Assembly (NCBI RefSeq): GCF_028291725.1 | Contig: NZ_JAQGNT010000042.1 | Location: 1-64,000 of the forward strand | Length of the DNA: 64,000 nucleotides | Direction of reading: 5' to 3' | Source: Hydrocarboniphaga sp. | GTDB lineage: Bacteria; Pseudomonadota; Gammaproteobacteria; Nevskiales; Nevskiaceae | Shown here: positions 1 to 17,799 of the stretch, piece by piece | Layout: each line of letters begins with the position of its first letter | Position numbering within the stretch: the stretch's first letter is position 1 | Translations under genes and position numbers: made by a program | Notes under the pieces: model-generated | What the model saw: only the letters and a program-made list of their open reading frames with translations | The model's database searches: none | Told to the model about the DNA's origin: nothing

Positions 1-248
1 CGGTGATGCGCACCGAGCAGGCACTTCCAGCCGATGTGAAACTGCTGGCGCCGCTGAAATCCGCCCTGCTGCTCGCCCCGCTGATGCAGGTCGACGGCGA
101 TACCCAGAACCGCCTCACCCGCGGCGAAGTCAATATCGTCGCCGACAAGTCCATCCCCTATCACCTGCTCAAAAAGGTCATGGCGACCTGTACCGATACC
201 CGCTTCGCACGCATCTCGCTGGCCGTCGTCGAGAAGAAGGGCGTCTGA
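1..248 (+). CDS. ExbD/TolR-family proton-channel subunit, 3' end only
   Basis: The reading frame is open from the left edge of the window, so the N-terminus is missing; the first possible start inside the window (GTG at 3) is unlikely to be the true one. The visible 80 or so residues match the C-terminal periplasmic domain of ExbD/TolR: a VNIVADKSIPYHLLKKVM stretch followed by a conserved hydrophobic strand (ISLAVVEK) and the end. ExbD works with ExbB as a proton-driven stator that energises TonB. The TonB-like gene downstream fits this, and exbB probably lies just outside the window. Confidence is good for the family; ExbD versus TolR cannot be settled from this fragment. Confidence 0.75.
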   Translation, partial: VMRTEQALPADVKLLAPLKSALLLAPLMQVDGDTQNRLTRGEVNIVADKSIPYHLLKKVMATCTDTRFARISLAVVEKKGV

Positions 249-274
249 TGAGCAGCCGCGCCCATCGATCGAAC

Positions 275-347
275 GTAGGGCGGGTCATGACCCGCCGCTT
301 TTTTGGCCCACCCGCGCAGAAAAACGGCGGGTCGCGACCCGCCCTAC
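275..347. repeat. GTAG-type REP pair (GGGCGGGTC family)
   Basis: Two inverted units face each other. The left begins GTAGGGCGGGTCATGACCCG and the right ends with a CCGCCCTAC complement. The unit recurs at 39693-39781. The leading GTAG is the signature of REP elements mobilised by RAYT (TnpA-REP) proteins. It lies between the exbD-like and tonB-like genes, 40 bp before the latter. Confidence 0.8.
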
Positions 348-387
348 GCAGCTTCGATACGGCCTATCGCGCTCAAGGAGGAGGCGC

Positions 388-1386
388 ATGAACGCCACCG
401 CTCTGCACCACAACGCCGTGATCGGCGTCGATGCCTGGGGCCTCGCCGATGAAACCGATCGCCGGTTCCAACGCATTCTGGTGCGCGTGCTGGCACCGGT
501 GATGGCGCTGGCGATCATCGTGCCGTGGGTGCGGCTGCAGATTGACAAGGACGAAGAAAAACCGCCCCCGGCGCTGGTGATCGAGCTGTTGCCCGATCCG
601 CCGAAGCCCAAGCCGATTCCCAAACCCGAAATCAAGCCGGAAGAACCGCCGGTTGAAAAAGCCGCAGTCAAGCCGATACCGAAGCAGGAAGCGCCGAAGC
701 CTGTCGTACCTAAAAAAGAGCAGCCCTCGCCCGCCGCCGCGTCTGCGGCGCCCGCGCCCAGTGCGCGCGAGATTGCCCAGCAGTCCGGCCTGATGCAGTT
801 CCGCGATCAGCTCGCCGCGGTGCGCAGCCAGAACGCGCTCAGTGCCAGCACCGATCAGCCGCTACAGGTCGAGTCGGCCATCACATCAATGAGCAACAGC
901 GTTGCGCGCGGCGAACGCCTCGCATCGGCCAGCGGCAGCGGCGGCATCGGCAGCACCAGCGGTAAAAGTGTCGTCGGCGCCCAGAACGGCACCAGCCTGG
1001 GAAATCGCCGCACCGCGAGCGTGCAAAGCGGTATTGGCTACGGTACCGGCGCACCTCAGGGATCGGGCGGCACCGGCACAGGGCCCGCTGCCTCACGTTC
1101 ATTGCAGGACCTGCAGCTCACTTTCGACCGTAACAAGTCGTCGTTCTCGGCGATCTTCAATCGCGCTGCGCGTGAAACACCGGGCATGGAGGCTGGAAAG
1201 ATCGTGTTGAGTCTGACGATCGCGCCGGACGGATCGGTCACGCGCTGCGAAGTCGTGTCGAGCAGCTTCAATGATGCAGCTCTCGAGGAAAAAATAGTGC
1301 AGCGCGTTCGACTGATGAACTTCGGCGCGAAGAACGTACCCGCATACACATATCCCAACTATCCGATGAACTTCATCGCCTCATGA
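388..1386 (+). CDS. TonB/AgmX-like energy-transducer protein
   Basis: This 332-residue protein has one membrane-spanning helix (about residues 28-46) and a long Pro/Lys/Glu-rich stretch (about 55-115) typical of TonB-like proteins that span the periplasm. A Gly/Ser/Thr-rich linker (about 170-240) follows, then a C-terminal domain of about 95 residues of the AgmX/PglI-TonB type (LSLTIAPDGSVTRCEVVSSS). It probably couples the inner-membrane proton channel formed by the upstream ExbD-like protein to an outer-membrane or trans-envelope function. The start at 388 has a strong AGGAGG Shine-Dalgarno sequence. The stop overlaps the next start (ATGA). Which outer-membrane partner it serves is unknown; the DUF3034 barrel downstream is a candidate. 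Confidence 0.75.
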   Translation: MNATALHHNAVIGVDAWGLADETDRRFQRILVRVLAPVMALAIIVPWVRLQIDKDEEKPPPALVIELLPDPPKPKPIPKPEIKPEEPPVEKAAVKPIPKQEAPKPVVPKKEQPSPAAASAAPAPSAREIAQQSGLMQFRDQLAAVRSQNALSASTDQPLQVESAITSMSNSVARGERLASASGSGGIGSTSGKSVVGAQNGTSLGNRRTASVQSGIGYGTGAPQGSGGTGTGPAASRSLQDLQLTFDRNKSSFSAIFNRAARETPGMEAGKIVLSLTIAPDGSVTRCEVVSSSFNDAALEEKIVQRVRLMNFGAKNVPAYTYPNYPMNFIAS

Positions 1387-1619
1387 ACACGATGGCGCAC
1401 CTGGAAAACGCTTCGGCGACTACGCCTCAGGCCCCCGGGGAATCCACGATGAATCCCAATCATCCAGGGCGCGGCCTGTTCCTCGCAGCGGCGACGCTGG
1501 CCTTGGCGGCGATGCTCTGCCTCTACGGTTTCATCAAGATCGTGCCGCTGGCCGCGGCCCACACCGGTGCGGCGAGTACCGCGAGTACGAGTTCGTCGTC
1601 AAAAGAGGTCATGCACTAA
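1383..1619 (+). CDS. small single-pass membrane protein
   Basis: This 78-residue protein overlaps the end of the TonB-like gene by four bases (ATGA), which supports translational coupling. It has a polar N-terminus, one clear transmembrane segment (about residues 31-52, LFLAAATLALAAMLCLYGF), and a Ser/Thr/Ala-rich tail. No family is recognised. A second ATG (Met-23, position 1449) just before the hydrophobic segment could be the true start. Its position suggests an accessory subunit of the ExbD/TonB-like system, but this is inference from context only. Confidence 0.5.
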   Translation: MNTMAHLENASATTPQAPGESTMNPNHPGRGLFLAAATLALAAMLCLYGFIKIVPLAAAHTGAASTASTSSSSKEVMH

Positions 1620-1753
1620 ATATGACGTTTTCGCTTCGGTATTAGCGACAGCGGCGCCCAAAGCTGGTTCACCTGTCAGAAAGGAATTCCTTGATCGGCC
1701 ACACACCACGCATAAATATTTGATATGTAGCGATTTTTTTTCGTAACGAGGGT

Positions 1754-1769
1754 TGGCACAGCGGTTGCT
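1754..1769 (+). promoter_or_regulatory. sigma-54 promoter upstream of the DUF3034 gene
   Basis: TGGCACA-GCGG-TTGCT matches the -24/-12 consensus (TGGCAYR-N4-TTGCW) at every defined position, with the required 10 bp between GG (1755-1756) and GC (1767-1768). The predicted transcription start is near 1780. The first coding sequence downstream begins at 2059, leaving a leader of about 280 nt. Sigma-54 use implies an enhancer-binding activator such as NtrC; no convincing NtrC site was identified. Confidence 0.75.
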
Positions 1770-1780
1770 TTATAAGTGAT

Positions 1781-1877
1781 GCGACACAAAGTCGCTTGAG
1801 GATTCGAGCAAAGACGCTCGCTCCTACGGATATCGACGTCCACGTCCTGGCCCAGTGCCGGCACGTGGATTTTTTTT
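1781..1877 (+). promoter_or_regulatory. putative ANTAR-type antitermination leader with intrinsic terminator
   Basis: Downstream of the sigma-54 promoter come hairpin GCGAC/GTCGC (1781-1795), then stem CGAGC/GCTCG (1805-1820) with hexaloop AAAGAC. Stem GGAT/GTCC (1828-1841) with hexaloop ATCGAC follows. Both hexaloops have A at position 1 and G at position 4, the recognition signature of ANTAR antiterminators (NasR, NasT, EutV). The second hairpin shares bases with the left arm of a terminator: TCCACGT (1839-1845) pairs with ACGTGGA (1863-1869), CTGGC pairs with GCCGG inside it, and eight T follow (1870-1877). The same layout, with an identical AAAGAC loop, lies before narK. The regulator gene is not in this window. 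Confidence 0.65.
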
Positions 1878-1970
1878 GCCCGAGGGATGCACCGAAGGCA
1901 GAGCCGGAGTTCCAGGAAGCGGTAGCGGATTGCGTTGTTTTGGATGTGCGTTTCAAGCAGCAGGGTCGTT

Positions 1971-2014
1971 AAAAGCGAAGCAGGCTCCGGAGGCGGGGCG
2001 CTTTTTATTTTTTT
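1971..2014 (+). terminator. second terminator-like hairpin in the DUF3034 leader
   Basis: AAAAGCG (1971-1977) pairs with CGCTTTT (1999-2005) and is followed by a T-rich run to 2014. It lies 45 bp before the DUF3034 start, so it would act as a second attenuator on the leader transcript rather than end an upstream gene. The loop is large (21 nt), so efficiency is uncertain. Confidence 0.4.
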
Positions 2015-2058
2015 AATACGAAATAGCGGTACCCATCTACAAACCAAGGAGTTGAGGC

Positions 2059-3144
2059 ATGAAAGGGTCTAAAGGGAGTGGAGCGCGCTGGGTCAAGGGC
2101 GCCGTTTTTGCAGCGCTGAGCATGGTGTCCAGCCATTCGTGGGCAGGCATTTATGACGACGGCAAAGTGTTCTTGACGGGCGGCGTGTTCACTGTCGACG
2201 GTGGTGGTGGCGGCGGTGCGGTGCCGTGGGCGACCATCACCGGTTATGAAACCCGTGACGGCATCAACGGTGGTGCGGGCTTCACGTATGTCAGCTTGCC
2301 GAACTACACGCTGAATTTCCTCGGCGCCTCGGTCGGCTTCTTCGATCGCTTCGAGCTGTCGTACATGAACACCAAGCTATCGACCAACCTGGGCAACGTC
2401 GATACGGTTGCGCTGGCTGCATCACTGCTGAACCTCGACAAGAACCTGGGTCTTGATCCGAACGGCAGCAATCTGCACATGGAAACCTACGGAGCCAAGA
2501 TTCGCCTGTTCGGCGATGCGGTCTACACCTCCGACAGCTTCCTGCCGCAGACGGCTATCGGCGCGTACTACAAGGTCAACAGCACCAAGGAATTCGTCAC
2601 GACTTTGAGCGCTGACAAGGCCAAAGACTACGAAATCTACGCGGCCTTCACCAAGGTGTTCTTCCGCTATAGCACGCTGGTCAACCTGACTGTTCGCTAC
2701 ACCTCTGCCAACCAGATCGGTCTGACCGGCTTTGGTTCCTGCGAAGCCAACCACACCAACTGCAACAACGATAAGGAATTCCGCATGGAGTTCTCGACGG
2801 CCTATCTGTTGCAGAAGAACTTTGCGATCGGTGGCGAGTGGCAGCAACACGGCAACCAGCAGAAGCATCGTCCGGTCGATACCGGTGATCTTCTGTCCAC
2901 CACCAGCGCCAATGGCGCCACCGACCTCGTCCACGGCGTTGTCGGCAACGTCGTCGGCGGCGTGATTGGCGCTACCGCCCTGTCGCAGTCGCTGACACAG
3001 AACGAAAGCGACTGGTACGACGTGTTCTTTGCTTATGCACCGAACAAGAACTACTCGCTCGTGTTCGCCTACCTGTTCCTGGGCGACATCGCGGTGGCTC
3101 ACGAGCAGAACGGTCTGTACTTCGCCCTGCACGCCACGTTCTAA
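2059..3144 (+). CDS. DUF3034 family outer-membrane beta-barrel protein
   Basis: This 361-residue protein has a signal peptide (about 1-29, ending SHSWAG). A Gly-rich N-terminal segment is followed by alternating amphipathic strands rich in Tyr/Phe, and the chain ends in phenylalanine (HATF), the usual C-terminal signal of Bam-inserted outer-membrane barrels. The sequence resembles the DUF3034 family, which has no established function. Shine-Dalgarno AAGGAG lies 7 nt before the ATG. It is the first gene after the sigma-54/antitermination leader and is followed after 67 bp by an exported globin. Context suggests an outer-membrane channel or receptor expressed with nitrate assimilation; substrate uptake (nitrate, heme or another) is speculation. 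Confidence 0.75.
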   Translation: MKGSKGSGARWVKGAVFAALSMVSSHSWAGIYDDGKVFLTGGVFTVDGGGGGGAVPWATITGYETRDGINGGAGFTYVSLPNYTLNFLGASVGFFDRFELSYMNTKLSTNLGNVDTVALAASLLNLDKNLGLDPNGSNLHMETYGAKIRLFGDAVYTSDSFLPQTAIGAYYKVNSTKEFVTTLSADKAKDYEIYAAFTKVFFRYSTLVNLTVRYTSANQIGLTGFGSCEANHTNCNNDKEFRMEFSTAYLLQKNFAIGGEWQQHGNQQKHRPVDTGDLLSTTSANGATDLVHGVVGNVVGGVIGATALSQSLTQNESDWYDVFFAYAPNKNYSLVFAYLFLGDIAVAHEQNGLYFALHATF

Positions 3145-3211
3145 GCGCCTGCATCCTGTTTGAACCACTCTGTCGTCGTTCTATCTGCACACATATCTGA
3201 TGGAGATTCAC

Positions 3212-3682
3212 ATGAAATCATTCACGCGTAACCTGATGGTCGGAGCGGCGCTGTCGATGGCAGCTCTGGCTTCGGCGCCGTCCTTTGCCGGTGAGAGCAA
3301 AACCTCGCCGATCCTCGGCATCACCTCCTCCTCGCTCGAAGAATTCGGCGGCCCGGACGGCGTCCGCGCCTGGGTCGAGAGCCTGTTCTACTACATCATG
3401 CTCGACAACCGCATCGCGCCGATCTTCCGCGAATTCGGCAACGTGGAGCGCCAGACCTTCTTGAACACGCAGCTCGAGATCATGGTTCTGGGCGGCCCGA
3501 ACGAGTACCAGGGTGCCAGCATGAGCGCGGCTCACGCCGATCTCGGAATCACCATGCCGCAGTTCAACGCGGTGGTGGAAGCGGCTTACAACGCCTGCGA
3601 ACGCAATGTGATCCCGTATCACACCTGCAATCAGCTGATCAATGCGCTGGCGCCGTTCACGAGGGACATCGTCACCCGTTGA
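3212..3682 (+). CDS. exported group I truncated hemoglobin
   Basis: The protein has 156 residues: a cleavable signal peptide (about 1-26, ending PSFAG), then a 2-on-2 globin domain of about 115 residues. Visible signatures are the FGG start of helix A/B, a B10-type tyrosine (Tyr-60/61 in LFYYIML), and the LGGPNEYQG turn. The proximal histidine is His-108 in AAHADLGIT. Two cysteines (129 and 139) near helix G/H could form a disulfide after export. The start at 3212 is preferred over an in-frame ATG at 3200 because GGAG sits 8 nt upstream and the signal peptide begins there. Truncated globins bind O2 or NO and are usually cytosolic, so export is unusual. Confidence 0.82.
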   Translation: MKSFTRNLMVGAALSMAALASAPSFAGESKTSPILGITSSSLEEFGGPDGVRAWVESLFYYIMLDNRIAPIFREFGNVERQTFLNTQLEIMVLGGPNEYQGASMSAAHADLGITMPQFNAVVEAAYNACERNVIPYHTCNQLINALAPFTRDIVTR

Positions 3683-3753
3683 ACCCAATGCAGGCTTAGA
3701 GTTCAAAGCTTCTATGATCCAAGCCTGCAGATTGCCGAGTTGCAAGTAGTACG

Positions 3754-3848
3754 GCGCGATTCGCGCGAGAACACCGGGCGGCCAATGGCGGCTACGCCAA
3801 CCACACCGCCCAGTGGTTTTCGCGCGGATCGCGCTTCTTTGTTTTTTG
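3754..3848 (+). terminator. long imperfect inverted repeat with T-rich tail
   Basis: Arms of about 28 bp (3754-3781 and about 3806-3834; GCGCGATTCGCGCGAGAAC against its near complement) flank a loop of about 25 bases. A T-rich tract (3837-3846) follows. It probably terminates globin transcripts, which may make the FMN-protein gene at 3900 separately or less strongly expressed. It might also be a degenerate repeat element. Confidence 0.5.
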
Positions 3849-3899
3849 TATTCTGGTTTCATACCCACAGGCCCGAACCGTTCGCACTACCAATAAACC

Positions 3900-4514
3900 A
3901 TGAACCCGTTCAAAAACCTCAAGCAGTACCTCACCCCCTCTTCTTCGACCGATTCCATGGACGGAACGTCAGTGAACCCCCTGTCCAATTCCAAGCGCTC
4001 ATTCCTGCGTGCCGGCCTTGGCCTGTCGCTGGCCGGTCTCGGTATCAGCCGCGCGCAGGCTGCCGGCGGTCTCGAGCAGTTCTACAAATACAACATCCCA
4101 CCCGAAACCTGGCTCGCCGAAGTATTCGGCGGGCAGGTGCCGCCTCCGCAGGTCGCTCCCGGTGGCAGCTTCGGTCTGATGCAGCCATTGCCGGGACGCG
4201 TGCGTTACTGGCGCGCCAATGGCCGCACCGCCTGGGTCTTCGACGACATCGGCAAGGTCGGTTATGCGCCGACCACTTGCGGCTTCGTCGTCAAGGCGGG
4301 CGCGATCGAATCCGCCAAGGTGCTGATCTATCGCGAATCGCGCGCCGACCAGGTCGGCACACCGTCGTTCCTGAATCAGCTGATCGGTGCCAAATCCGCC
4401 GGCGCCGGCATCGACCGGAAAGTCGACAACATCTCCGGCGCGACCTACTCGGTCGACATGATGAAGCGCATGGCCAATGCCGCTCTGCAGCTGGACAAGA
4501 CTGTCCCGGCCTGA
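3900..4514 (+). CDS. Tat-exported FMN-binding domain protein (ApbE substrate)
   Basis: The protein has 204 residues. The N-terminus carries a Tat-like signal with a KR variant of the twin-arginine motif (SKRSFLRAGLGLSLAGLG, about residues 30-48). The C-terminal FMN-binding domain ends with the flavinylation motif SGATYS, in which Thr-182 would carry phosphoester-linked FMN attached by ApbE. The PepSY and apbE genes follow at once, forming a classic flavinylation cassette. The start is uncertain: ATG 3900 gives a long n-region, while ATG 3957 or GTG 3972 (just after GGA) would give a normal Tat signal length. The likely role is extracytoplasmic electron transfer; the partner is unknown. Confidence 0.8.
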   Translation: MNPFKNLKQYLTPSSSTDSMDGTSVNPLSNSKRSFLRAGLGLSLAGLGISRAQAAGGLEQFYKYNIPPETWLAEVFGGQVPPPQVAPGGSFGLMQPLPGRVRYWRANGRTAWVFDDIGKVGYAPTTCGFVVKAGAIESAKVLIYRESRADQVGTPSFLNQLIGAKSAGAGIDRKVDNISGATYSVDMMKRMANAALQLDKTVPA

Positions 4515-4522
4515 TCATCGCC

Positions 4523-5425
4523 ATGTCGGTACAACCTTCGATCAAGCCGCCGCCCAAATATCCGCCGCCGCCTGTACTGCGGAAATTCGCCGGGGCCTTC
4601 CGCAACTGGCGCGTGCGCAATCTGCCGGGGCATCAGCATGTGCCCAAGCCGCCTAAGCCGAAACCGAACTTCAGCATGTTTCTGCGCACCTGGCACAAGC
4701 GCGCGGGCCTGTTTGCGTTCGTGTTCATGGGCTGGCTCGGCTTCAGCGGCTTTCTGATCAACCAGAGCGCCAGCTGGGGCTATGACGTCGCCCGCGTGCG
4801 CGTGTCGTGGGTAATGTCGCTGTACGGCCTGCATCCGGAGCCGCCGGGCACCGGCTTGGTTGCGGGTGGACACTGGCTCGCCGAAACCATCGACGTCACC
4901 CTGCTCGATGGCAAACCGCTGAGCCAGCGCATCCCGAAGCAACTCGGCATGGCAATCGGCGGAAGCGCCGACAAGCCGCTGCTGTTCGTCGCCGAGCCCG
5001 ACAAGGTCGTCGTGCTGGGCCCGGACGGCTCGCTGGTCGACGAAATGAGCGGCTACACGCTGCCGGTGCCGGCGATCCGCCGCATCGGCGTCGTCGACGG
5101 CAAGCCGAACAAAGTCGTGATTCAGGATCTGGATGCCTACGCGACCACCGATGGCTTGCAGTGGGACAAACTGCCGGTCAACTCCGACGTCAAATGGTCC
5201 GAGCAGACGCCGCTGACCGACGCGCAGAAAGCCTCGGCCCTGCCCTATTCGCGGCCCTCGGTATCGCTGGAACACGTGCTGGTCGACGCGCATAGCGGCC
5301 GTCTGTTCGGTGCGTTCGGCGCATGGGTAATCAACTTCGTCGGCATCGCCGCGATTCTGCTGTCGATCAGCGGTGTCTGGATCGTGGTGCGCACCAGCAA
5401 GCAAAGGCGCCAGGCGCGCCGGTGA
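4523..5425 (+). CDS. PepSY-associated TM domain protein
   Basis: This 300-residue protein has an N-terminal cytoplasmic Pro-rich segment and a first TM helix near 58-74 (AGLFAFVFMGWLGFSGFLI). A periplasmic PepSY-like region follows, including the repeat VLVDAHSGRLFG, then a C-terminal TM helix (about 267-290). It belongs to the PepSY-TM family that accompanies FMN-binding domains and ApbE in flavin-based extracytosolic electron-transfer systems, where such proteins are thought to pass electrons across the inner membrane. The reading frame is open far upstream, but ATG 4523, eight bases after the previous stop, is the sensible start. The stop overlaps apbE (TGATG). Confidence 0.72.
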   Translation: MSVQPSIKPPPKYPPPPVLRKFAGAFRNWRVRNLPGHQHVPKPPKPKPNFSMFLRTWHKRAGLFAFVFMGWLGFSGFLINQSASWGYDVARVRVSWVMSLYGLHPEPPGTGLVAGGHWLAETIDVTLLDGKPLSQRIPKQLGMAIGGSADKPLLFVAEPDKVVVLGPDGSLVDEMSGYTLPVPAIRRIGVVDGKPNKVVIQDLDAYATTDGLQWDKLPVNSDVKWSEQTPLTDAQKASALPYSRPSVSLEHVLVDAHSGRLFGAFGAWVINFVGIAAILLSISGVWIVVRTSKQRRQARR

Positions 5426-6462
5426 TGCGATCGCTGTTCACGCCCAGGACCTTGGTACGCCATTCGTTCCTGGCGATGGGCACGGACGTGATGGTGACGC
5501 TGGCTCCGCGCCGCCGCCACCTGATCAAAAAAGCACGCGAAGCGATCGTCGACGTGCAGATCATGATCCGCGAGTTCGGCCGCGACGGCTGGGCCTGGGG
5601 CGACGGCGAACTGGGCACCTTCAATCGCCGGCTCGCCGCTGGCGAGCGCGTGGCGATTCCGCCGGCGCTGAAGCCGATTTTCGATCGCGCCTGGGCGATA
5701 CGGCAGGCCAGCGATGGACATTACGAGCCGCGTATCGCCGGCTTGGTGCATCTCTGGGGTTTCGACGATCTGGCCCGTTTGCGGCAACAGCCGCCCAACC
5801 GCGCCGAAATCGACGACAGGATCGCCGCAATGCACCGCGCTCCGGCTTACGAAGCCGGCAGCGCGCATTACGGGCCTGCACCGCAAACCGGCTGGGATTT
5901 CGGCGGCATTGCCAAAGGCTATATCGTCGACCGCGCGCTCGACCTGCTGCGCGAAGCCGGGTTCGGCGACGCAACCGTCGACGCTGGCGGCAATGTGTCC
6001 GCCCGCGGCCGTAAACACGATCGGTCGTGGCTGATCGGCATCCGCAAACCGCTGGATCTCGGCGACGACCCCGACACTCCCAGCTTGCTCGCGGTGCTGG
6101 CGGCCGACAACGAGGCCGTCAATACCCACGGCGACGATCAACGATTCTTCATCCATGAAGGCCGCCGCTATGCGCATCTGCTCGACCCGCGCAGCGGCGA
6201 TCCGGTCGAAGGCCTGCGCTCGCTGACCGTGGTACACCACGACGGCATGCTCGCCGAAGCCGGTGGCGCCGCCTTGTTCGTGGCCGGGCCGGGCGCGTGG
6301 CCGGCTCTCGCCGCAAAGCTCGGCATCGATCAGGTGCTCGCCGTGCATACCGACGGGCGCGTGATGGCGACACCGGCATTGGCCAGGAGGCTGCGCGCGG
6401 AACCCGGTGTAGTCATTCAGACCGTCGGGCTTTTGGGCGAAATCGAAAGCCTTATCGGCTAG
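5425..6462 (+). CDS. apbE: FAD:protein FMN transferase ApbE
   Basis: This 345-residue protein has the ApbE hallmarks: MGTDVMVTL at the N-terminus, FGGIAKGYIVDRA, the flavin-binding DAGGN, and the metal/substrate motif HLLDPRSGDP with the following SLTVV strand. ApbE moves FMN from FAD onto a Thr/Ser of target proteins, here most likely the SGATYS motif of the neighbouring FMN-binding protein. No obvious signal peptide is present before MGTD, so the site of action (cytosolic or periplasmic) is unclear. ATG 5425 overlaps the PepSY stop. The stop codon TAG lies inside the left arm of a palindromic repeat. Confidence 0.88.
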   Translation: MRSLFTPRTLVRHSFLAMGTDVMVTLAPRRRHLIKKAREAIVDVQIMIREFGRDGWAWGDGELGTFNRRLAAGERVAIPPALKPIFDRAWAIRQASDGHYEPRIAGLVHLWGFDDLARLRQQPPNRAEIDDRIAAMHRAPAYEAGSAHYGPAPQTGWDFGGIAKGYIVDRALDLLREAGFGDATVDAGGNVSARGRKHDRSWLIGIRKPLDLGDDPDTPSLLAVLAADNEAVNTHGDDQRFFIHEGRRYAHLLDPRSGDPVEGLRSLTVVHHDGMLAEAGGAALFVAGPGAWPALAAKLGIDQVLAVHTDGRVMATPALARRLRAEPGVVIQTVGLLGEIESLIG

Positions 6463-6587
6463 CCCCAACACGGTTCACTTTGTCGCGTAGGGCGGGAGGA
6501 GCGCAACGTATCCCGCCGCCCCGTCGCGAAAGGCGGGATGCTCCCGCCCTACAACTCCGCGTTAACTGAACGGTATTGGGGCTAGCC
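6457..6587. repeat. nested inverted repeat at the end of apbE
   Basis: Outer arms GGCTAGCCCCAA (6457-6468) and TTGGGGCTAGCC (6576-6587) are perfect complements. They enclose a GTAG-type REP pair (6487-6552; GTAGGGCGGGAG on the left, CTCCCGCCCTAC on the right). The apbE stop TAG (6460-6462) is part of the left outer arm. The structure probably insulates or terminates the upstream operon. Confidence 0.75.
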
Positions 6588-6748: not shown

Positions 6749-6764
6749 TGGCATGTCCATTGCG
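6749..6764 (+). promoter_or_regulatory. sigma-54 promoter of the nitrate assimilation operon
   Basis: TGGCATG-TCCA-TTGCG matches the -24/-12 consensus at all but the last position, with exactly 10 bp between GG (6750-6751) and GC (6762-6763). Predicted transcription start is near 6775, about 365 nt before narK. Sigma-54/NtrC control is well known for nas operons of Klebsiella and Pseudomonas. Confidence 0.75.
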
Positions 6765-7138: not shown

Positions 7139-8509
7139 ATGAACCTGCAGAACTCGAAGGCGACGTCAATCAAGCTGTTCAGCTTGGCGACGCCGCAGAT
7201 GCGCGCGTTCCATTTGACCTGGATGGCGTTTTTCGTGTGCTTCTTCGCCTGGTTCGCGGTCGCGCCGCTGATGCCGATCATCAAGGGCGAATTCGGACTG
7301 ACCAAGGACCAGATCGCCAACATCAATATCGCTGCCGTCGGCATCACGATACTGGTGCGTCTGCTGATCGGCCCGATGTCGGACAAGTACGGGCCGCGCA
7401 AGACCTACACCGGCCTGCTGCTGCTCGGCGCGATCCCGGTCTTCGGCATCGCCTTTGCCAAGAGCTATGAAGCCTTCCTGGTGTTCCGCCTGGCGATCGG
7501 CGCCATCGGCGCCAGCTTCGTGATCACGCAATACCACACCTCGGTGATGTTCGCGCCGAACGTGGTCGGCACCGCGAACGCGGCGGCGGCAGGTTGGGGC
7601 AATGCCGGCGGCGGCGTCACCCAGAGCCTGATGCCGCTGGTGCTGCTGGCGGTGATCAGCTTCGGCGTCGACAAGGCCTTGGGCTGGCGCGTGTCAATGC
7701 TGGTTCCCGGCATCATGATGGTGATCGTCGGCCTGCTTTACTGGAAGTACACGCAGGACTGCCCGCAAGGCAATTACAAGGAGCTGCGCGCCGCTGGCGT
7801 GCAACTTGAAAGCGGCGGCAAGGGCGGTGGCTGGGTCTCGTTCAAGACCGCGATGGCAAACTATCGCGTGTGGATGCTGTTCGTCACCTACGGCCTGTGC
7901 TTCGGCATCGAGCTGTTCGTACACAACGTCGCCGCCAGCTACTACGTCGACAAGTTTCAGATGGATCTGCAGCACGCCGGCCTCGCCGCCGGCAGCTTCG
8001 GCCTGCTGGCGCTGTTCGCTCGCGCGCTCGGCGGCATCGCCTCGGATCGCCTTGCGCGCCTCAAGGGCCTCGACGGTCGCACCATGCTGTTGTTCGCACT
8101 GATGCTGGGCGAAGGCATCGGCCTGATCTGGTTTTCGTCGGTACAGATCGCCAGCGTCGCCGTCGTCGCGATGATCGTATTCGGCGTTTTCACGCACATG
8201 GCCTGCGGCGCGACCTACGCGCTGGTGCCTTTCATTGATCGCAAATCCCTCGGCGGTGTCGCCGGCATCATCGGCGCCGGCGGCAATGTCGGCGCGGTCG
8301 CGGCGGGTTTCCTGCTCAAAGGCCTCGGTGATGTGCAGCTGACCTTCTTCTATCTCGGCGTCGCCGTTCTGTTTGGTGCCGCCTGTGCGGTCATGGTGCG
8401 CTTCAGCGCCGAGCATAAGGCCCGCGAAGCCAAGCTCTACGATGAAGCCGTCGCGATGCGCAAGGCCGCACCGGCAGCGCAGGGCGGCACGGAGGCGCTG
8501 GCCAGCTAA
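7139..8509 (+). CDS. narK: NarK/NasA-type nitrate/nitrite transporter (MFS)
   Basis: This 456-residue major facilitator protein has about twelve TM helices. It carries the nitrate-porter signatures: GPMSDKYGPRKTY after TM2, and the two glycine-rich nitrate motifs, GWGNAGGGVTQ in TM5 and GIIGAGGNVGAVAAGFL in TM11. It would bring nitrate into the cytosol for the reductases encoded directly downstream. It is the first gene of the nas operon and sits behind the sigma-54 promoter and antitermination leader. The family is firm; nitrate uptake rather than nitrite export is inferred from the assimilatory context. Confidence 0.92.
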   Translation: MNLQNSKATSIKLFSLATPQMRAFHLTWMAFFVCFFAWFAVAPLMPIIKGEFGLTKDQIANINIAAVGITILVRLLIGPMSDKYGPRKTYTGLLLLGAIPVFGIAFAKSYEAFLVFRLAIGAIGASFVITQYHTSVMFAPNVVGTANAAAAGWGNAGGGVTQSLMPLVLLAVISFGVDKALGWRVSMLVPGIMMVIVGLLYWKYTQDCPQGNYKELRAAGVQLESGGKGGGWVSFKTAMANYRVWMLFVTYGLCFGIELFVHNVAASYYVDKFQMDLQHAGLAAGSFGLLALFARALGGIASDRLARLKGLDGRTMLLFALMLGEGIGLIWFSSVQIASVAVVAMIVFGVFTHMACGATYALVPFIDRKSLGGVAGIIGAGGNVGAVAAGFLLKGLGDVQLTFFYLGVAVLFGAACAVMVRFSAEHKAREAKLYDEAVAMRKAAPAAQGGTEALAS

Positions 8510-8613: not shown

Positions 8614-11166
8614 ATGAAGCTCGTCGTCATCGGTAACGGCATGGTCGGTCACAAGCTGCTTGAGCAGCTGACCGCGCAAGCCGTTCCGGATCTTGAAATC
8701 ACGGTCCTCTGCGAGGAATCGCGGCCGGCCTATGATCGTGTCCATCTTTCGTCTTACTTCAGCGGCACTTCGGCCGAAGAGCTGTCGCTGGTCACGCCGA
8801 ATTTCTTCGAGCAGGACAATCTGCTGCTGAAACTCAACACCAAGGGCGTCGCCATCGACCGCGCCGCGCGCGTCGTCGTCACGTCCAATGGCGAGCGCGT
8901 CACTTACGACAAGCTGGTGCTCGCCACCGGCTCCTACCCGTTCGTACCGCCGGTGCCGGGCCGTGATCGCCCGGGCTGCCTGGTGTATCGCACGATCGAA
9001 GATCTGGAGGCGATGACCGACTGGGGCAAGAAGTCCAAGGTCGGCGTCGTCATCGGCGGCGGCCTGCTCGGCCTGGAATGTGCAAAGGCGCTGACTGACA
9101 TGGGCCTGGTTACGCACGTGGTCGAGTTCGCGCCGCGCCTGATGGCGGTGCAGATCGACGATGGTGGCGGCCGCGTGCTGCGCAACAAGATCGAAGCGCT
9201 CGGCGTCACCGTGCACACGCAGCGCAACACGCTGGAGATCGTCGACGGCTCGGGCATGGGCATCGGCGGCCGCCACGCGATGAAGTTCGCCGACGGCAGC
9301 CAGCTCGAGACCGACATGATCGTGTTCTCCGCCGGCATCCGTCCGCGCGACGAGCTGGCGCGCGTGTCGGGGCTCGAGATGGGCGAACGCGGCGGCATCA
9401 AGGTCGACAAGAACTGCCTGACCTCCGATGCGAACATCTACGCGATCGGCGAATGCGCACTGTCAGGCGGCAAGATCTACGGCCTGGTCGCACCCGGCTA
9501 CGAAATGGCTCGCGTGGTCGCGCAGCACATCAGCGGCAGCGGCGCCGAATTCAACGGCGCCGACATGAGCACCAAGCTCAAGCTGATGGGTGTCGACGTC
9601 GCCAGCATCGGCGACGCGCACGCCGCCACGCCCGGTTCGCGCTGCTATGTGTTCACCGACGAGCGCAAGCAGATCTACAAGAAGATGGTCACCTCGGCCG
9701 ACGGCAAGGAGTTGATCGGCGCAGTGCTGGTCGGCGAAGCCAGCGAATACGGCACGCTGCTGCAGATGATGCTGAACCGCATGCCGCTGCCGGAGTCGCC
9801 GGAGTTTCTGATTCTGCCCTCCTCCGACGGCCTGGCCAAGCCCGGCCTCGGCGTCGACGCGCTGCCGGACAGCGCGCAGATCTGTTCGTGCAACGACGTG
9901 TCCAAGGGCGCGCTGTGCGCGGCGGTCGAAGGCGGCGCACGCACGGTCGGCGAATTGAAGAGCTGCACCAAGGCCGGCACCTCCTGCGGCGGCTGCGTGG
10001 CACTGGTCACGCAGATCATGAAGTCCGAGCTGAAGCGTCAGGGCGTCGCGGTCAACAACCATCTGTGCGAACACTTCGCGTATTCGCGCCAGGAGCTGTA
10101 CCACCTGGTGCGGGTGCACAAGATCAGGAGCTTCCGCGATCTGGTGCATCAGCACGGCAGCGGGCTCGGCTGCGACATCTGCAAGCCGGCTGTGGCTTCG
10201 ATTCTGGCTTCGTGCTGGAACGAGTTTGTGCTGAGCAAACCGAATGCGGCGCTGCAGGACTCCAACGATTATTTCCTCGGCAACATCCAGAAAGACGGCA
10301 CCTACTCGATCATCCCGCGCATCGCCGGCGGCGAGATCACGCCGCAGGGGCTGATCGTGATCGGCCAGGTCGCGCAGAAGTATGGTCTTTACACCAAGAT
10401 CACTGGCGGCCAGCGCATCGACATGTTCGGCGCGCAGGTTCATCAGCTGCCGGCGATCTGGCGCGAGCTGACCGATGCCGGCTTCGAATCCGGCCACGCC
10501 TACGGCAAGGCGCTGCGCACCGTGAAGAGCTGCGTGGGTTCGACCTGGTGCCGCTACGGTATGCTCGACTCGGTCAGCATGGCGCTTAAGATCGAGCACC
10601 GCTACAAGGGCCTGCGCTCGCCGCACAAGCTCAAGTCCGCGGTCTCGGGCTGCACCCGCGAATGCGCCGAGGCGCAGTCCAAAGACTTCGGCGTAATCGC
10701 CACCGAGAAAGGCTGGAACCTGTACGTCTGCGGCAACGGCGGCATGAAGCCGCGCCACGCCGAGCTGCTGGCCGGCGATCTCGACGACGAAACCCTGATC
10801 CGCTATCTCGACCGTTTCCTGATGTTCTACATCCGCACCGCGGATCGCCTGCAGCGCACCAGCGTCTGGCGCGACAACATGGAAGGCGGTCTCGATTATC
10901 TGAAAGACGTGATCGTCAACGACAGCCTCGGCATCGGCGCCGAGCTGGAATCCGAAATGGCGTCGATCGTCGACAGCTACGAAGACGAATGGAAGAAGGC
11001 GATCGACGATCCGGAAACGCTGAAGCGCTTCCGCAGCTTCGTCAACAGCGATGCAGGCGACAACAACGTGGTGTTCGTGCAGGAACGCGGCCAGATCCGG
11101 CCGGCCACCGCGGATGAGAAAAAAAGCCGCTTCAAAGGTATTCCGGTCGTCGAAGCCGAAGCCTGA
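8614..11166 (+). CDS. nirB: nitrite reductase [NAD(P)H] large subunit NirB
   Basis: This 850-residue protein reduces nitrite to ammonium in the cytosol using NAD(P)H, FAD, a [2Fe-2S] centre, a [4Fe-4S] centre and siroheme. Domains in order are an N-terminal FAD/NAD oxidoreductase (IGNGMVGHKLLEQL at the start, VVIGGGLLGLECAKAL near 145) and a BFD-like [2Fe-2S] domain (CSC near 424-426, then CGGC). Two ferredoxin-type sulfite/nitrite reductase repeats follow. The siroheme/4Fe-4S ligands are visible as Cys-640, Cys-646, Cys-680 and Cys-684. Length is normal for NirB. nirD follows 45 bp later. Confidence 0.96.
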   Translation: MKLVVIGNGMVGHKLLEQLTAQAVPDLEITVLCEESRPAYDRVHLSSYFSGTSAEELSLVTPNFFEQDNLLLKLNTKGVAIDRAARVVVTSNGERVTYDKLVLATGSYPFVPPVPGRDRPGCLVYRTIEDLEAMTDWGKKSKVGVVIGGGLLGLECAKALTDMGLVTHVVEFAPRLMAVQIDDGGGRVLRNKIEALGVTVHTQRNTLEIVDGSGMGIGGRHAMKFADGSQLETDMIVFSAGIRPRDELARVSGLEMGERGGIKVDKNCLTSDANIYAIGECALSGGKIYGLVAPGYEMARVVAQHISGSGAEFNGADMSTKLKLMGVDVASIGDAHAATPGSRCYVFTDERKQIYKKMVTSADGKELIGAVLVGEASEYGTLLQMMLNRMPLPESPEFLILPSSDGLAKPGLGVDALPDSAQICSCNDVSKGALCAAVEGGARTVGELKSCTKAGTSCGGCVALVTQIMKSELKRQGVAVNNHLCEHFAYSRQELYHLVRVHKIRSFRDLVHQHGSGLGCDICKPAVASILASCWNEFVLSKPNAALQDSNDYFLGNIQKDGTYSIIPRIAGGEITPQGLIVIGQVAQKYGLYTKITGGQRIDMFGAQVHQLPAIWRELTDAGFESGHAYGKALRTVKSCVGSTWCRYGMLDSVSMALKIEHRYKGLRSPHKLKSAVSGCTRECAEAQSKDFGVIATEKGWNLYVCGNGGMKPRHAELLAGDLDDETLIRYLDRFLMFYIRTADRLQRTSVWRDNMEGGLDYLKDVIVNDSLGIGAELESEMASIVDSYEDEWKKAIDDPETLKRFRSFVNSDAGDNNVVFVQERGQIRPATADEKKSRFKGIPVVEAEA

Positions 11167-11211
11167 GAAATCTTGGAAGCCATGGGCACTACGAATACGG
11201 AGGACGCGACG

Positions 11212-11574
11212 ATGGACGGTGGAAGCCTGGGCATCGCAGCCGCGGAATGGGTCTGCGTCTGCGCCGCCGACGATATCTGGCCGAACATCGGCGTCTGCGC
11301 GCTGGTCAGGAATAACCAGATCGCGGTGTTCCGCCTGCAGGATGGCGACGGCGTCGATCACTATTACGCGATCGACAACTACGACCCGCAGTCCGACGCG
11401 AACGTGCTGTCGCGCGGGCTCACCGGCTCGCTCGGCGGGCGCAAGGTAGTCGCGTCGCCGATCTACAAGCAGCACTACGACCTGGTTACCGGCGAATGTC
11501 TGGAAGACGCCAGCCAGCCGGTGCGCGCCTACGCGGTTCGCGTGGATGGCGGCAAGATCTGGGTCGCGGTTTGA
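11212..11574 (+). CDS. nirD: nitrite reductase small subunit NirD
   Basis: This 120-residue Rieske-fold subunit starts WVCVCAADDIWPNIGVCALV and contains the segment VVASPIYKQHYDLVTGECLED, where true Rieske proteins have CxH ligands. NirD lacks those cluster ligands, which is normal for this family. The start at ATG 11212 is chosen because GGAGG (11199-11203) lies 8 nt upstream; an in-frame TTG at 11173 and ATG at 11182 would add an unconserved leader. It acts with NirB in cytosolic nitrite reduction. Confidence 0.92.
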   Translation: MDGGSLGIAAAEWVCVCAADDIWPNIGVCALVRNNQIAVFRLQDGDGVDHYYAIDNYDPQSDANVLSRGLTGSLGGRKVVASPIYKQHYDLVTGECLEDASQPVRAYAVRVDGGKIWVAV

Positions 11575-11579
11575 CCGTC

Positions 11580-12830
11580 GTGAGTCTCCGCCGCAGACCG
11601 CGCCTGGTGGTGGTCGGTAATGGCATGGCGGGCATGCGCACCGTCGAGGAGTTGCTGAAGTTCGCTCCCGAGCATTACGACATCAGCGTGTTCGGCAGCG
11701 AAGCGCACGGCAACTACAACCGCATCCTGCTGTCGCCGGTGCTCGCCGGCGACAAGCAGTTCGCCGACATCATGCTGCACACGCGCGAGTGGTACGCGGC
11801 CAACGACATCACGCTGCATGCCGGTGATCCGGTGGTGCGCATCGACCGCAATCGCCGCGTGGTCGTGTCGCAGTCCGGTTTCCAGGCGCCCTACGACCGC
11901 CTGCTGCTGGCGACCGGCTCCAAGCCTTTCGTGATTCCGGTGCCGGGCCACAAGCTGCCCGGCGTGATCGCGTTCCGCGATATTGCCGATGTCGAGGCGA
12001 TGCTCAGCGCGAGCCGCAGCCATAAACGCGCAGCGGTGATCGGCGGCGGCCTGCTCGGCCTGGAAGCCGCCAACGGCCTGATGCGCCAGGGCATGGACGT
12101 CACCGTGATCCACGTGATGGACAGCCTGATGGAACGCCAGCTCGACAAGCCGGCGGCCTCGCTGCTGCGCAGCGCGCTGGAGAAGCGCGGCCTGCGCTTT
12201 CTGCTGTCGGCGCAGACCGCCGAAATCATTGGTACTGATCGCGTTACCGGCATCAAATTCAAGGACGGCAGCGAAATCGAAACCGACCTGGTGGTGATGG
12301 CCGTCGGCATCCGCCCGAACTTCGATCTCGCCAAATCCGCCGGCCTGTACTGCGACCGCGCGATCGTCGTCGACGACACGCTGCAGACGCATACCGATCC
12401 GCGCATCTACGCGGTCGGCGAATGCGTGCAGCATCGCGGCGCCGTTTACGGCCTGGTCGCGCCGCTGTGGGAGCAGGCGCGTGTCTGCGCCGGGCATCTG
12501 GCCGCGGTCGGCTACAAGCGCTATCCCGGCTCGGTGACCTCGACCAAGCTCAAGGTCACCGGCATCGACCTGTATTCGGCGGGCGATTTCATCGGCGGCG
12601 CCGATACCGAAGACCTCGTATTCCGCGATCCGCGGCGCGGCGTCTACAAGCGCCTGATCATCCGCAAATCCGACGGCGGCGATCGCATCATCGGCGCGGT
12701 GCTGTATGGCGACGTCGCCGACGGGCCCTGGTATTTCGAGCTGATGCAGAAGAACGCGGACATCTCCGCGCTGCGCAATAAACTGCTGTTCGGCCGCTCA
12801 TTTTGCGAAGCCTCCGGTCAGGCGGCCTAG
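11580..12830 (+). CDS. NirB-like FAD/NAD(P)H oxidoreductase (NasB-type electron donor)
   Basis: This 416-residue flavoprotein aligns with the N-terminal half of NirB. It has RLVVVGNGMAGMRTVEELL at the start for FAD and AAVIGGGLLGLEAANGL for NAD(P)H, plus ATGSKPFVIPVPG and YAVGECVQHRGAVYGL. It ends before any BFD or siroheme domain. In other nas operons a protein of this kind passes electrons from NAD(P)H to NasA, and the NasA here carries the matching BFD [2Fe-2S] domain. GTG 11580 gives the usual short N-terminus; TTG 11571, overlapping the nirD stop, is an alternative. The TAG stop codon lies inside the left arm of a 167-bp palindromic element. Confidence 0.85.
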   Translation: MSLRRRPRLVVVGNGMAGMRTVEELLKFAPEHYDISVFGSEAHGNYNRILLSPVLAGDKQFADIMLHTREWYAANDITLHAGDPVVRIDRNRRVVVSQSGFQAPYDRLLLATGSKPFVIPVPGHKLPGVIAFRDIADVEAMLSASRSHKRAAVIGGGLLGLEAANGLMRQGMDVTVIHVMDSLMERQLDKPAASLLRSALEKRGLRFLLSAQTAEIIGTDRVTGIKFKDGSEIETDLVVMAVGIRPNFDLAKSAGLYCDRAIVVDDTLQTHTDPRIYAVGECVQHRGAVYGLVAPLWEQARVCAGHLAAVGYKRYPGSVTSTKLKVTGIDLYSAGDFIGGADTEDLVFRDPRRGVYKRLIIRKSDGGDRIIGAVLYGDVADGPWYFELMQKNADISALRNKLLFGRSFCEASGQAA

Positions 12831-15693: not shown

Positions 15694-15790
15694 GGCAGTG
15701 CCGGATCGGCACCGAATCGACACCGAACCGGCTTATTTGTACCGATATTCGGGCCGGCGCAAGGTCCGCGTCGGGGCTACAATGCGAGCC

Positions 15791-16387
15791 ATGTCACACC
15801 TCTCCCACTCCCAGCAGCCGATTGCCGGCGGCATTCTCGCCGGCGGCGAAGGCCGCCGTTTCGGCGGTCTCGACAAGGGCTGGATCGCGTATCGCGGCCA
15901 CAGCTTCGTCGAGCAGGTGCTGTCGCGGCTGCAGCCCCAGGTCGATGAGCTGCTGATCTCGGCGAATCGCAACCTCGATCGTTATCAGGCACTGGGCCAT
16001 CCGGTGCTGAGTGATCGTCTCGGCGCCGGCCCGCTGGCCGGCCTGCTGCGCTTGCTCGAATCCGCATCACGGTCCTGGCTGCTGACGGCACCCTGCGACG
16101 CGCTCGATCTGCCCACCGATCTGGCGCGGCAATTCATCGAGATTCAGCGCAGCCAGGACGCCGACGTCGTCGTGCTCACTGATGACGACGGCGTGCATCC
16201 GACGGTCAGCCTGACGCGGGCCTCGCTGGCGCCGGACATCGAAGCTTTCATGCGGGACGGCGGCCTGTCGCTGCAGCGCTGGCAGTCGCGGCATCGCGTG
16301 GTCCAGGCGCGGCGCGGCGGTGTGCTGTGCAACGTCAACGACGCGACGGCACTCGACGAGTTGCAGCGGGAGCCGGTCCATGGCTGA
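15791..16387 (+). CDS. mobA: molybdenum cofactor guanylyltransferase MobA
   Basis: This 198-residue enzyme adds GMP to molybdopterin to make the MGD cofactor needed by NasA. The nucleotidyltransferase signature AGGILAGGEGRRFGGLDKG is at residues 11-29, and the metal-binding segment LLTAPCDALDLP follows near 100. ATG 15791 places the signature at the usual distance; an in-frame ATG at 15782 adds three residues. Its end overlaps moaA by eight bases, so it is translated as part of the Moco gene run. Confidence 0.9.
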   Translation: MSHLSHSQQPIAGGILAGGEGRRFGGLDKGWIAYRGHSFVEQVLSRLQPQVDELLISANRNLDRYQALGHPVLSDRLGAGPLAGLLRLLESASRSWLLTAPCDALDLPTDLARQFIEIQRSQDADVVVLTDDDGVHPTVSLTRASLAPDIEAFMRDGGLSLQRWQSRHRVVQARRGGVLCNVNDATALDELQREPVHG

Positions 16388-17789: not shown

Positions 17790-17799
17790 GAGAGATCCA

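Follow-up and report, generated by a model that had tools for sequence, protein, structure and literature searches.

What does an outer-membrane barrel of the DUF3034 family do beside an exported globin, and why does such a pair stand ahead of the genes for nitrate assimilation? The question is raised by the first genes in a 64,000-nucleotide stretch of a Hydrocarboniphaga sp. genome (NZ_JAQGNT010000042.1, positions 1–64,000; here called the window), which starts at the edge of a contig (C78) of the 6.47 Mb assembly. A single direction of transcription there takes in the tail of an ExbD gene and genes for a TonB/AgmX-like protein, the DUF3034 barrel, the globin, an FMN_bind protein, a PepSY_TM protein and ApbE, followed by narK, nirB, nirD, a flavin oxidoreductase gene and a molybdopterin nitrate reductase gene (Table 1). 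Of the named matches to the barrel, that in Hydrocarboniphaga daqingensis is nearest, with 83–84% identity. An initial annotation, made from the sequence alone, had proposed that these envelope genes form a redox system linked to nitrate assimilation that had not been described before. The barrel, globin, FMN_bind, PepSY and ApbE genes of that same-direction set all match their Pfam families above cut-off, and no description of the combination, or of the pairing with an exported globin, was found in the open-licence literature, where the mentions of DUF3034 are unrelated as judged by title and the start of the abstract. We tentatively read the locus, at chances somewhat short of even, as a nitrate-controlled envelope redox module that most likely keeps the exported globin ferrous against nitric oxide (NO) or nitrite-derived species.

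The barrel and its globin

The association of barrel and globin was followed in three surveys. In an even draw of 200 genomes of the phylum, with positions compared by eye, 12 genomes had DUF3034, and all 12 (our own included) had a globin-profile match directly downstream on the same strand. The globin profile matched 55 of the 200 genomes, 43 of them among the 188 without DUF3034, though mostly weakly. Above 85 bits, the only match without DUF3034 was in one genome (G214, 92.9 bits), with a score equal to those of some barrel-linked globins. The second survey took the best 80 contig matches of 566 relatives, best first, giving 32 loci with the FMN_bind type of operon (L063–L094) and 48 FMN-less loci (L095–L142). 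The globin is beside the barrel in 75 of these 80, counting one fusion; four exceptions (L082, L102, L129 and L132) are at contig ends, and in the fifth (L108) neither of the flanking 10-kb stretches contains one. In the third survey, of the same order, 31 of 32 stretches had the globin and the exception is at a contig end, with some stretches duplicating a place or a genome. The second and third surveys overlap (L063 and L056, for example) and are not independent.

The order of barrel and globin is inverted in two loci (L126 and L131). In Rugamonas A1-17 (L137), signal peptide, globin and barrel form one 434-residue frame, a single case that is possibly an assembly error. The globins beside barrels diverge to about 24% identity. 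A failure of the genes to co-occur beyond close relatives had been set beforehand as the refuting outcome; the barrel and globin are found together in Alpha-, Beta- and Gammaproteobacteria, and the version with FMN_bind and PepSY also in the Spongiibacteraceae. With an adjacency that survives both order inversion and one fusion, the two proteins very probably work together as a pair. Chance adjacency was considered as an explanation, and is ruled out by the 12 of 12 in the phylum draw and by the fusion.

A few unusual arrangements were also seen. Sinimarinibacterium has two tandem barrel-globin pairs (L073:227–3981), and the second barrel has an N-terminal OmpA domain. One genome of the same genus as ours (G001:C1, contamination 9) carries the barrel region twice, ca. 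203 kb apart and with equal scores, reflecting either duplication or an assembly fault. Small genomes of family f32 frequently have neighbouring globin pairs with weak profile matches (about 35 to 55 bits) and no DUF3034.

Two types of barrel-globin locus

The 32 FMN-type loci, which come from Nevskiaceae and relatives and from Spongiibacteraceae, include the FMN_bind gene in 31, the PepSY gene in 30 and an ApbE gene nearby in 19, while neither FMN_bind nor PepSY is found in any of the 48 FMN-less loci. In an unrooted barrel tree, a branch with full support (100/100) sets the FMN type, Spongiibacteraceae included, apart from the rest. Retrieval was best first, however, so that the split also tracks identity, and long branches drew a warning from the program.

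Each type has its own companions. A cupredoxin-like protein and a GGDEF/EAL sensor accompany the pair in most lineages seen; in the FMN-less loci these are a small exported protein (C7, 23 of 48 loci) with cupredoxin-type ligands, mostly His-His...Cys-Asn-Ile-His-Asp-x-Met, and a dCache-HAMP-GGDEF-EAL protein (C3, 29 of 48 loci, compared with only 2 of the 32 FMN-type loci). Of the FMN-less loci in the phylum draw, nine were compared, two more genomes from one of the genera being left out; C7 was near in seven and C3 in seven. A Caballeronia record gives DUF3034, a "group 1 truncated hemoglobin", a "methylamine utilization protein" and an EAL protein consecutively, and Novosphingobium has a divergent form.

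The FMN-type loci have a different cupredoxin partner (C6, 24 of 32 loci). Six of the seven members scanned combine an OmpA and a cupredoxin domain and one has the cupredoxin alone (L092); the member in L073 is an OmpA-DUF3034 fusion with no cupredoxin. Copper-bind was above cut-off in the seven scanned and in the copy in our own genome, while the one C7 member scanned had no Pfam cupredoxin match. By eye, the type-1 copper ligands (His, Cys, His, Met) are present in 23 of 24 C6 members, L073 being the one without the domain, and in 24 C7 members. Because two cupredoxin families adjoin the same barrel-globin pair, this suggests that copper electron transfer is part of the function. Other companions of the FMN type are NasT-type (C15, 10 of 32) and NasS/NrtA-type genes (C14, 11 of 32) and a TPR/ExbB/ExbD/TonB cluster (C10 in 19 of 32; C17, C18 and C19 in 9 of 32 each). 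The fullest example of the order is in Nevskia (L084): TPR, TPR, C22, ExbB, ExbD, ExbD, TonB-like, OmpA-cupredoxin, NasT, NasS, barrel, globin, FMN_bind, PepSY, ApbE. All the genes in the initial list are present, though that list omitted the cupredoxin partners, the neighbours of cyclic di-GMP type, and the existence of a core with neither FMN_bind/PepSY nor a nitrate-type leader.

In some Solimonas (L064–L066), a NasT-type gene and an extra frame with no Pfam match (C47) lie inside the operon, between the globin and FMN_bind genes (L066:11524–12856).

A sigma-54 site and an ANTAR-type leader

On both strands of the 64 kb there are only two exact sigma-54 sites, one ahead of the barrel (1754) and one ahead of narK (6749). 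By chance 0.39 would be expected, and 9 of 100 shuffles reach two. The leader that follows the first site folds with a z score of −3.3, better than 200 of 200 shuffles. The fold has a 5-bp stem, a hairpin (P1, loop AAAGAC) and a terminator with a run of eight T; an alternative hairpin, P2, reads GGAT(ATCGAC)GTCC, and its 3' arm is the 5' arm of the terminator. Both hexaloops carry A at position 1 and G at position 4. ANTAR leaders have been described, in the part of PMC3369931 drawn on here, as two tandem hexaloop hairpins with A at 1 and G at 4, of which the second overlaps a terminator, and the leader predicted before the barrel is in this NasT-type arrangement. No Rfam family matched within the window at gathering thresholds.

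Related leaders were surveyed in loci retrieved by the barrel profile, with the site required within 450 nucleotides (nt) of the barrel and one locus dropped at a contig end (L090). All 25 Nevskiales-type barrels and all 6 from Spongiibacteraceae have a sigma-54 site ahead of them (31 of 31 FMN-type), compared with 0 of 48 FMN-less loci and 4 of 1000 mononucleotide shuffles. A dual hexaloop with a T-run, scored by an automatic rule, was found in 19 of the 25 Nevskiales-type leaders (all except L074, L076, L080, L082, L091 and L094), in 0 of 6 from Spongiibacteraceae, in 0 of 48 FMN-less loci and in 0 of 1000 shuffles. For the remaining genes of the same loci, companions included, the figures are 37 of 340 for the sigma-54 site and 6 of 340 for the dual hexaloop.

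Covariation was assessed in 24 leaders, the window's and 23 of the 25 others (a duplicate, L072, and one of odd length, L094, were excluded), against shuffles that take no account of relatedness. In P1, 82.9% of cells are paired, with a covariation of 0.426 compared with 0.230 when shuffled (0 of 500 reach it). In the terminator, 97.4% of cells are paired and 4 of 8 pairs have changes on both sides (0 of 500 shuffles). P2 is nearly invariant, too much so to covary.

The leader had been likened at first to that of the adjacent nas operon. The likeness is firm for the exact sigma-54 site at both and less firm for the ANTAR part: narK in the window has a single 4-bp hexaloop hairpin (AAAGGC) ahead of a T-run, and a dual hexaloop was found in 0 of 7 narK leaders of relatives. 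A sigma-54 site precedes narK in 2 of these 7 within 450 nt, and in 5 of 7 in 650-nt regions. NtrC boxes were also sought 5' of the sigma-54 sites. Two of 30 regions have one at no more than one mismatch, compared with 0.7% of shuffles, and the best in the window has three mismatches, which is insufficient to name NtrC.

NasS-NasT answers to nitrate and nitrite and acts by antitermination (PMC5424462 and PMC4724949, both in part). Our genome has two ANTAR proteins, each near a NasS/NrtA-type gene. One contig (C83, L159) has OmpA-cupredoxin, NasS, NasT and the TPR genes TPR10 and TPR12 together. The OmpA-cupredoxin gene there has a sigma-54 site (L159:3022) and a run of eight T, together with the hexaloop hairpin GGACC(AACGGC)GGTCC and, by eye, a weak second hairpin of this kind. 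A further sigma-54 site, at 2961, belongs to TPR12 and lies on the same strand as that gene; 0.06 sites would be expected in 13.5 kb. Across the FMN-type loci, sigma-54 sites in the 650-nt regions precede 15 of 23 OmpA-cupredoxin genes, 7 of 12 TPR12 genes and 29 of 29 barrels, compared with 10 of 203 unlabelled genes, and the dual hexaloop is found in 3 of 23 OmpA-cupredoxin leaders. Since companions elsewhere carry the same type of sigma-54 site, the regulon probably extends beyond the window.

The second NasT gene is on another contig (C79, L160), with a barrel of the Alginate_exp cluster and a NasS/NrtA-like protein that has a twin-arginine-type signal; this barrel may be a second nitrate-controlled outer-membrane protein.

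Occurrence with nitrate assimilation genes

A set of 61 genomes, our own and 60 relatives, was compared for gene content. DUF3034 is present in 31; three of these, from family f6, have FMN-less barrels, which leaves 28 genomes with an operon of the FMN type. The sets were entered by hand and are phylogenetically nested, and relatedness inflates the p values below. Among the matches listed, an FMN_bind match above 200 bits is found in 27 of 28 operon genomes and 0 of 33 others, assimilatory NirB in 28 of 28 and 9 of 33 (Fisher 7e-10), at least two TPR10 copies above 500 bits in 23 of 28 and 0 of 33, and OmpA-cupredoxin matched to its end in 20 of 28 and 0 of 33. Within our own family, the NirB figures, again among the matches listed, are 25 of 25 and 7 of 12 (p 0.002). 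The NirB-positive set includes one genome with a match of 538 bits at 39% identity (G038) and one that is partial at contig ends (G003). ANTAR proteins are present in 28 of 28 operon genomes and 17 of 33 others; in 9 of the 28 an ANTAR gene is no more than 3 kb from the barrel, and in 18 no more than 15 kb. Away from the operon there are weaker FMN_bind relatives (38 to 205 bits), and such relatives occur in operon-less genomes too (up to 159 bits).

The proposed link to nitrate is supported by these NirB counts, by the leader, and by the genes of NasT/NasS type that some loci have within the operon or next to it. The link to an ExbD/TonB system is likewise supported, by the second TPR copy of the cluster. 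That this cluster is a mere neighbour was considered and rejected: a single TPR10 copy is common in operon-less genomes, while a second above 500 bits occurs, among the matches listed, only in operon genomes of the 61, the TPR gene alone being counted.

Protein features

Bacterial globins are mostly regarded as cytoplasmic. The claim that this one is an exported truncated globin is upheld by its profile matches and by a home-made rule for signal peptides and lipoboxes, which 73 of 76 globins pass, 4 with a lipobox; the three misses retain a hydrophobic N-terminus. The window's globin scores 26.3 bits with Bac_globin (cut-off 21, Pfam, scanned in 3200–3682), and a profile of the family finds the Mycobacterium tuberculosis HbN structures first (best E 1.7e-24). 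The proximal His (F8) and the CD1 Phe are present in 36 of 36 aligned globins, and by profile and by these two residues the protein is classed as a group-I truncated haemoglobin. Cys129 is present in 13 of 14 aligned FMN-type globins, while most others have a Cys-x3-Gly-Gly-Pro-Cys pair instead. These cysteines are consistent with export.

The AlphaFold2 model of the barrel has a mean confidence (pLDDT) of 81 and 13 strand elements, which we read as 12 strands (313–316 with 319–329). Its nearest folds are FapF (Z 20.2), KdgM (18.6), NanC (17.7) and a COG4313 channel (4rl8, 17.6), followed by autotransporter barrels at about 16. A modelled likeness of fold to channels shows no function, and a search by sequence gave nothing meaningful and no kinship.

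The ApbE flavinylation motif is D-x2-[ST]-G-A-T. The FMN_bind protein has the stretch VDNISGATYS, in which G180, A181, T182 and S184 are invariant in 20 of 20 and D176 nearly so; the residue before GAT is Ser, Thr or, in 2 of 20, Ala. From this motif, the protein is probably flavinylated covalently by ApbE. Against solved structures there was a weak match to an FMN domain only (E 0.27). It had been called Tat-exported, which does not hold for this copy: its signal, SKRSFLRAG, has Lys-Arg and not Arg-Arg, and RRx[FLIMVA] is found in 12 of 20 (alignment A2).

Of the His residues of the PepSY protein, only two are invariant in 20 of 20 (Table 1), and its ends align weakly with FoxB (7abw). FoxB has two haem sites, each with two conserved His, according to passages of PMC10979944, in which ApbE attaches FMN and PepSY-like proteins are predicted haem carriers that move electrons across the membrane.

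Layout of the window

Table 1. Features at the start of the window
Feature	Position	Strand	Support
ExbD/TolR-like C-terminal piece, truncated by contig edge	3..248	+	PF02472 23.6 bits, cut-off 25.4
TonB-like / AgmX-PglI-C energiser protein, 5' of sigma-54 site	388..1386	+	NF033768 46.7 bits, cut-off 40
sigma-54 −24/−12 site, barrel operon	1754..1768	+	exact TGGCAC-N5-TTGC
Predicted ANTAR/NasT-type leader (P1 loop AAAGAC; P2 loop ATCGAC; terminator using 3' arm of P2; T8)	1775..1877	+	
DUF3034 outer-membrane barrel	2059..3144	+	PF11231 227 bits
Exported group-I truncated globin (signal peptide, proximal His108, Cys129/Cys139)	3212..3682	+	PF01152
Exported FMN_bind protein, D176-x2-S-G-A-T182	3900..4514	+	PF04205 28.3 bits, cut-off 22
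PepSY_TM membrane protein (two hydrophobic transmembrane stretches; His58 and His257 invariant)	4523..5425	+	PF03929 47.2 bits, cut-off 28.8
ApbE, FAD:protein FMN transferase	5425..6462	+	PF02424 177.7 bits
sigma-54 site, narK-nas operon	6749..6763	+	exact TGGCAT-N5-TTGC
NarK-family nitrate/nitrite transporter (major facilitator superfamily)	7139..8509	+	TIGR00886 306.2 bits, slightly below cut-off 311.7
NirB-type assimilatory nitrite reductase large subunit	8614..11166	+	NIR_SIR, Fer2_BFD, Pyr_redox_2
NirD-type Rieske small subunit	11173..11574	+	Rieske_2 128 bits
FAD-dependent NAD(P)H oxidoreductase, nas operon	11562..12830	+	Pyr_redox_2 207 bits
Molybdopterin assimilatory nitrate reductase	12997..15693	+	Molybdopterin 251 bits, Fer2_BFD

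The energiser at the contig edge had been described as ExbD/TonB-like. Its AgmX/PglI tail stands, while the TonB part is below cut-off (Pfam TonB_C 22.2 compared with 24.6; TIGR01352 26.8 compared with 27.1), as is ExbD, which is only an edge piece here. In H. daqingensis, the equivalent place is occupied by an ExbD-cluster gene of 168 aa (L063:220–723). The nitrate reductase is called assimilatory because of its place with NirBD, and the oxidoreductase ahead of it presumably resembles Flp/NasB.

After the nas operon, 15698–20527 holds, by eye, molybdenum-cofactor biosynthesis genes (mobA, moaA, moaC/mog-like and moeA-like). GC-rich inverted repeats of the GTAGGGCGGGTC...GACCCGCCCTACG type, REP-like by eye, are found at 262–360, before the TonB-like gene, and at about 6480–6560, after apbE. 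A small frame at 1383–1619 overlaps the end of the TonB-like gene, and has one hydrophobic stretch by eye and no family match. The minus strand has two very large frames with a slight overlap, at 34740–39812 (1690 aa) and 39802–48765 (2987 aa).

Possible function

The gene set, its companions and the sigma-54/ANTAR architecture are read from the sequence; the chemistry is what we infer. In the ANTAR model as published, nitrate or nitrite releases NasT from NasS; here NasT would accordingly hold P1 and P2 and block the terminator. Electrons from quinol or NAD(P)H could then cross the inner membrane via PepSY haem, which would reduce the FMN attached by ApbE, and the FMN would in turn reduce the globin, the cupredoxin or both at the inner face of the barrel. 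While nitrate is being assimilated, the ferrous globin might clear the periplasm of NO or convert nitrite-derived species there. Such a module would correspond to flavohaemoglobin, or to the cytoplasmic Bjgb-Flp pair of Bradyrhizobium japonicum, in a split and exported form.

Several observations weigh against this. In the globin, B10 is F, V, L, I, M or T and never Tyr in 36 of 36 (Phe in the window), and E11 aligns to Leu, an assignment that is less sure since the FMN-type globins have one extra E-helix residue. The O2-stabilising pair of M. tuberculosis HbN is TyrB10/GlnE11. By alignment, the 36 globins fail the trHbN-type pattern for NO dioxygenase (TyrB10 with a polar E11); the pair is missing, and classical NO dioxygenase activity is therefore less likely. 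It is not obvious what the barrel would contribute to removing NO. In the model of the L137 fusion, the 12-strand barrel is good and the globin is poor (much of it below 50 pLDDT), and there is no docking pose. In 13 of 32 FMN-type loci the operon has no adjacent ApbE gene; four of these loci are cut by contig ends. The Spongiibacteraceae retain the sigma-54 site and none of the six, like 6 of the 25 Nevskiales-type leaders, passes the ANTAR rule. Changes on both sides are seen in 7 of 9 pairs of P1, though 50 of 500 shuffles also reach seven. The sampling of families is phylogenetically nested. Finally, the barrel-globin core occurs in 48 FMN-less loci with no FMN_bind, PepSY or leader, and the basic job of the core is therefore not nitrate-specific.

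There is also a wider proposal, to which we give close to an even chance. It is that the core is an unrecognised Proteobacteria-wide envelope machine, in which a haem globin, sitting against the periplasmic side of a dedicated outer-membrane channel, acts with a type-1 copper protein in redox chemistry or sensing of a small nitrogen or oxygen species at the outer membrane, and to which lineages have added inner-membrane modules of their own – c-di-GMP sensors in many, flavin/PepSY proteins under nitrate-type control here.

For the window, the missing TyrB10 leaves NO dioxygenase only moderate odds, and for the same reason a redox sensor is kept as the main rival. Here the barrel-docked globin and the cupredoxin would sense gas or redox state with signalling as the output, and the flavin relay in Nevskiaceae would reset the sensor. 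C3, with its GGDEF-EAL output, is near 29 of the 48 FMN-less loci and 7 of the 9 from the phylum draw, and the Caballeronia row ends in an EAL protein. C3 is, however, near only 2 of the 32 FMN-type loci, and a flavin relay and an energiser are excessive for sensing; we consider a sensor rather unlikely. Chance gathering, or a shared promoter with no joint function, is very improbable. A single branch separates the FMN-type barrels from the others, so that co-occurrence among them is partly single inheritance, and one barrel (L108) lacks a nearby globin, but the adjacency persists through order reversal (L126 and L131), ca. 24% globin identity and a fusion, and companions on another contig carry the same type of site.

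Two other readings give the barrel a part in transport. It might serve reductive acquisition of iron, copper or haem, with PepSY and FMN reducing, the barrel and ExbBD/TonB importing, and the cupredoxin and globin as carriers. PepSY flavinylation clusters are tied to iron reduction and uptake in parts of PMC8238504, the PepSY protein has its weak likeness to FoxB, and a second TPR copy marks 23 of 28 operon genomes compared with 0 of 33, among the matches listed. Sigma-54/ANTAR control counts against metal uptake, the barrel model as we read it has no plug like that of a TonB receptor, and TonB-dependent receptors (C16, by eye) are found in just 3 of 32 FMN-type loci; we consider this reading unlikely. 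Alternatively, the barrel could be an entry channel for nitrate or nitrite, energised or gated by the TonB-like cluster, with the globin, FMN_bind protein and cupredoxin converting nitrite or NO en route. This would agree with the sigma-54 site common to narK in the window, with the ANTAR leader, and with operon genomes being a subset of NirB genomes (28 of 28, among the matches listed). The nearest folds include the small-solute channels KdgM, NanC and COG4313, though also the polypeptide channel FapF and autotransporter barrels. FMN-less barrels have neither the sigma-54 site nor the dual-hexaloop leader (0 of 48), and three members of the order with an FMN-less barrel have no strong NirB match among those listed; nitrate entry as the main role seems quite unlikely. 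We retain the redox module that keeps the globin ferrous as the preferred reading.

Relation to known systems

A flavin-fed haem globin is familiar from the flavohaemoglobin Hmp. In the locus described here the parts are instead separate exported proteins, the FMN is probably covalent, and electrons would come via the membrane. Hmp is named in the part of PMC4724949 used here, which also gives what is, in our analysis, the nearest working precedent. In B. japonicum, the globin Bjgb and the flavoprotein Flp are NasST-controlled with nitrate assimilation and protect from NO, which the assimilatory nitrate reductase of Bradyrhizobium can produce (PMC4724949). As in narK-bjgb-flp-nasC, a globin and a flavin donor would be made with nitrate assimilation under NasS-NasT. 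That haemoglobin, however, is cytoplasmic and has a single domain, and its donor is linked to NAD(P)H, while here there are an exported truncated globin, FMN_bind, a membrane PepSY protein, a barrel and a copper protein.

The FMN_bind/PepSY part belongs to known flavinylated PepSY electron transfer. The PepSY-like clusters of Meheust et al. 2021 (PMC8238504, in part) also have PepSY_TM, an exported flavinylation substrate, ApbE and presumed electron flow from the inner membrane to the periplasm. They differ in the substrate, which there is frequently DUF2271 and here is FMN_bind, and in that only this locus is linked to a nitrate-type leader and to a barrel, globin and cupredoxin; the main text of that survey does not contain the word "globin". 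The globin shares with M. tuberculosis HbN (1idr, 2gl3) the profile family, the proximal His, the CD1 Phe and GGP-x2-Y-x-G-x2-M-x3-H, but is exported, is tied to DUF3034, lacks TyrB10 and has an extra Cys pair in most cases. The leader shares with those of EutV, NasR and AmiR (PMC3369931, in part) two A1/G4 hexaloop hairpins, the second overlapping a terminator, but precedes an envelope redox operon and not nas, eut or ami genes.

The core of barrel, globin and cupredoxin may be a new kind of system. The nitrate-type version makes the question testable, with a leader, a regulator and a candidate electron chain named and with relatives (H. daqingensis and Solimonas) in strain collections, according to record titles. 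If the reading is right, DUF3034 would gain a context, and NO, O2 or nitrite chemistry would have a new site, opened by a widespread globin that is exported and tied to cupredoxins and to a single family of outer-membrane channels.

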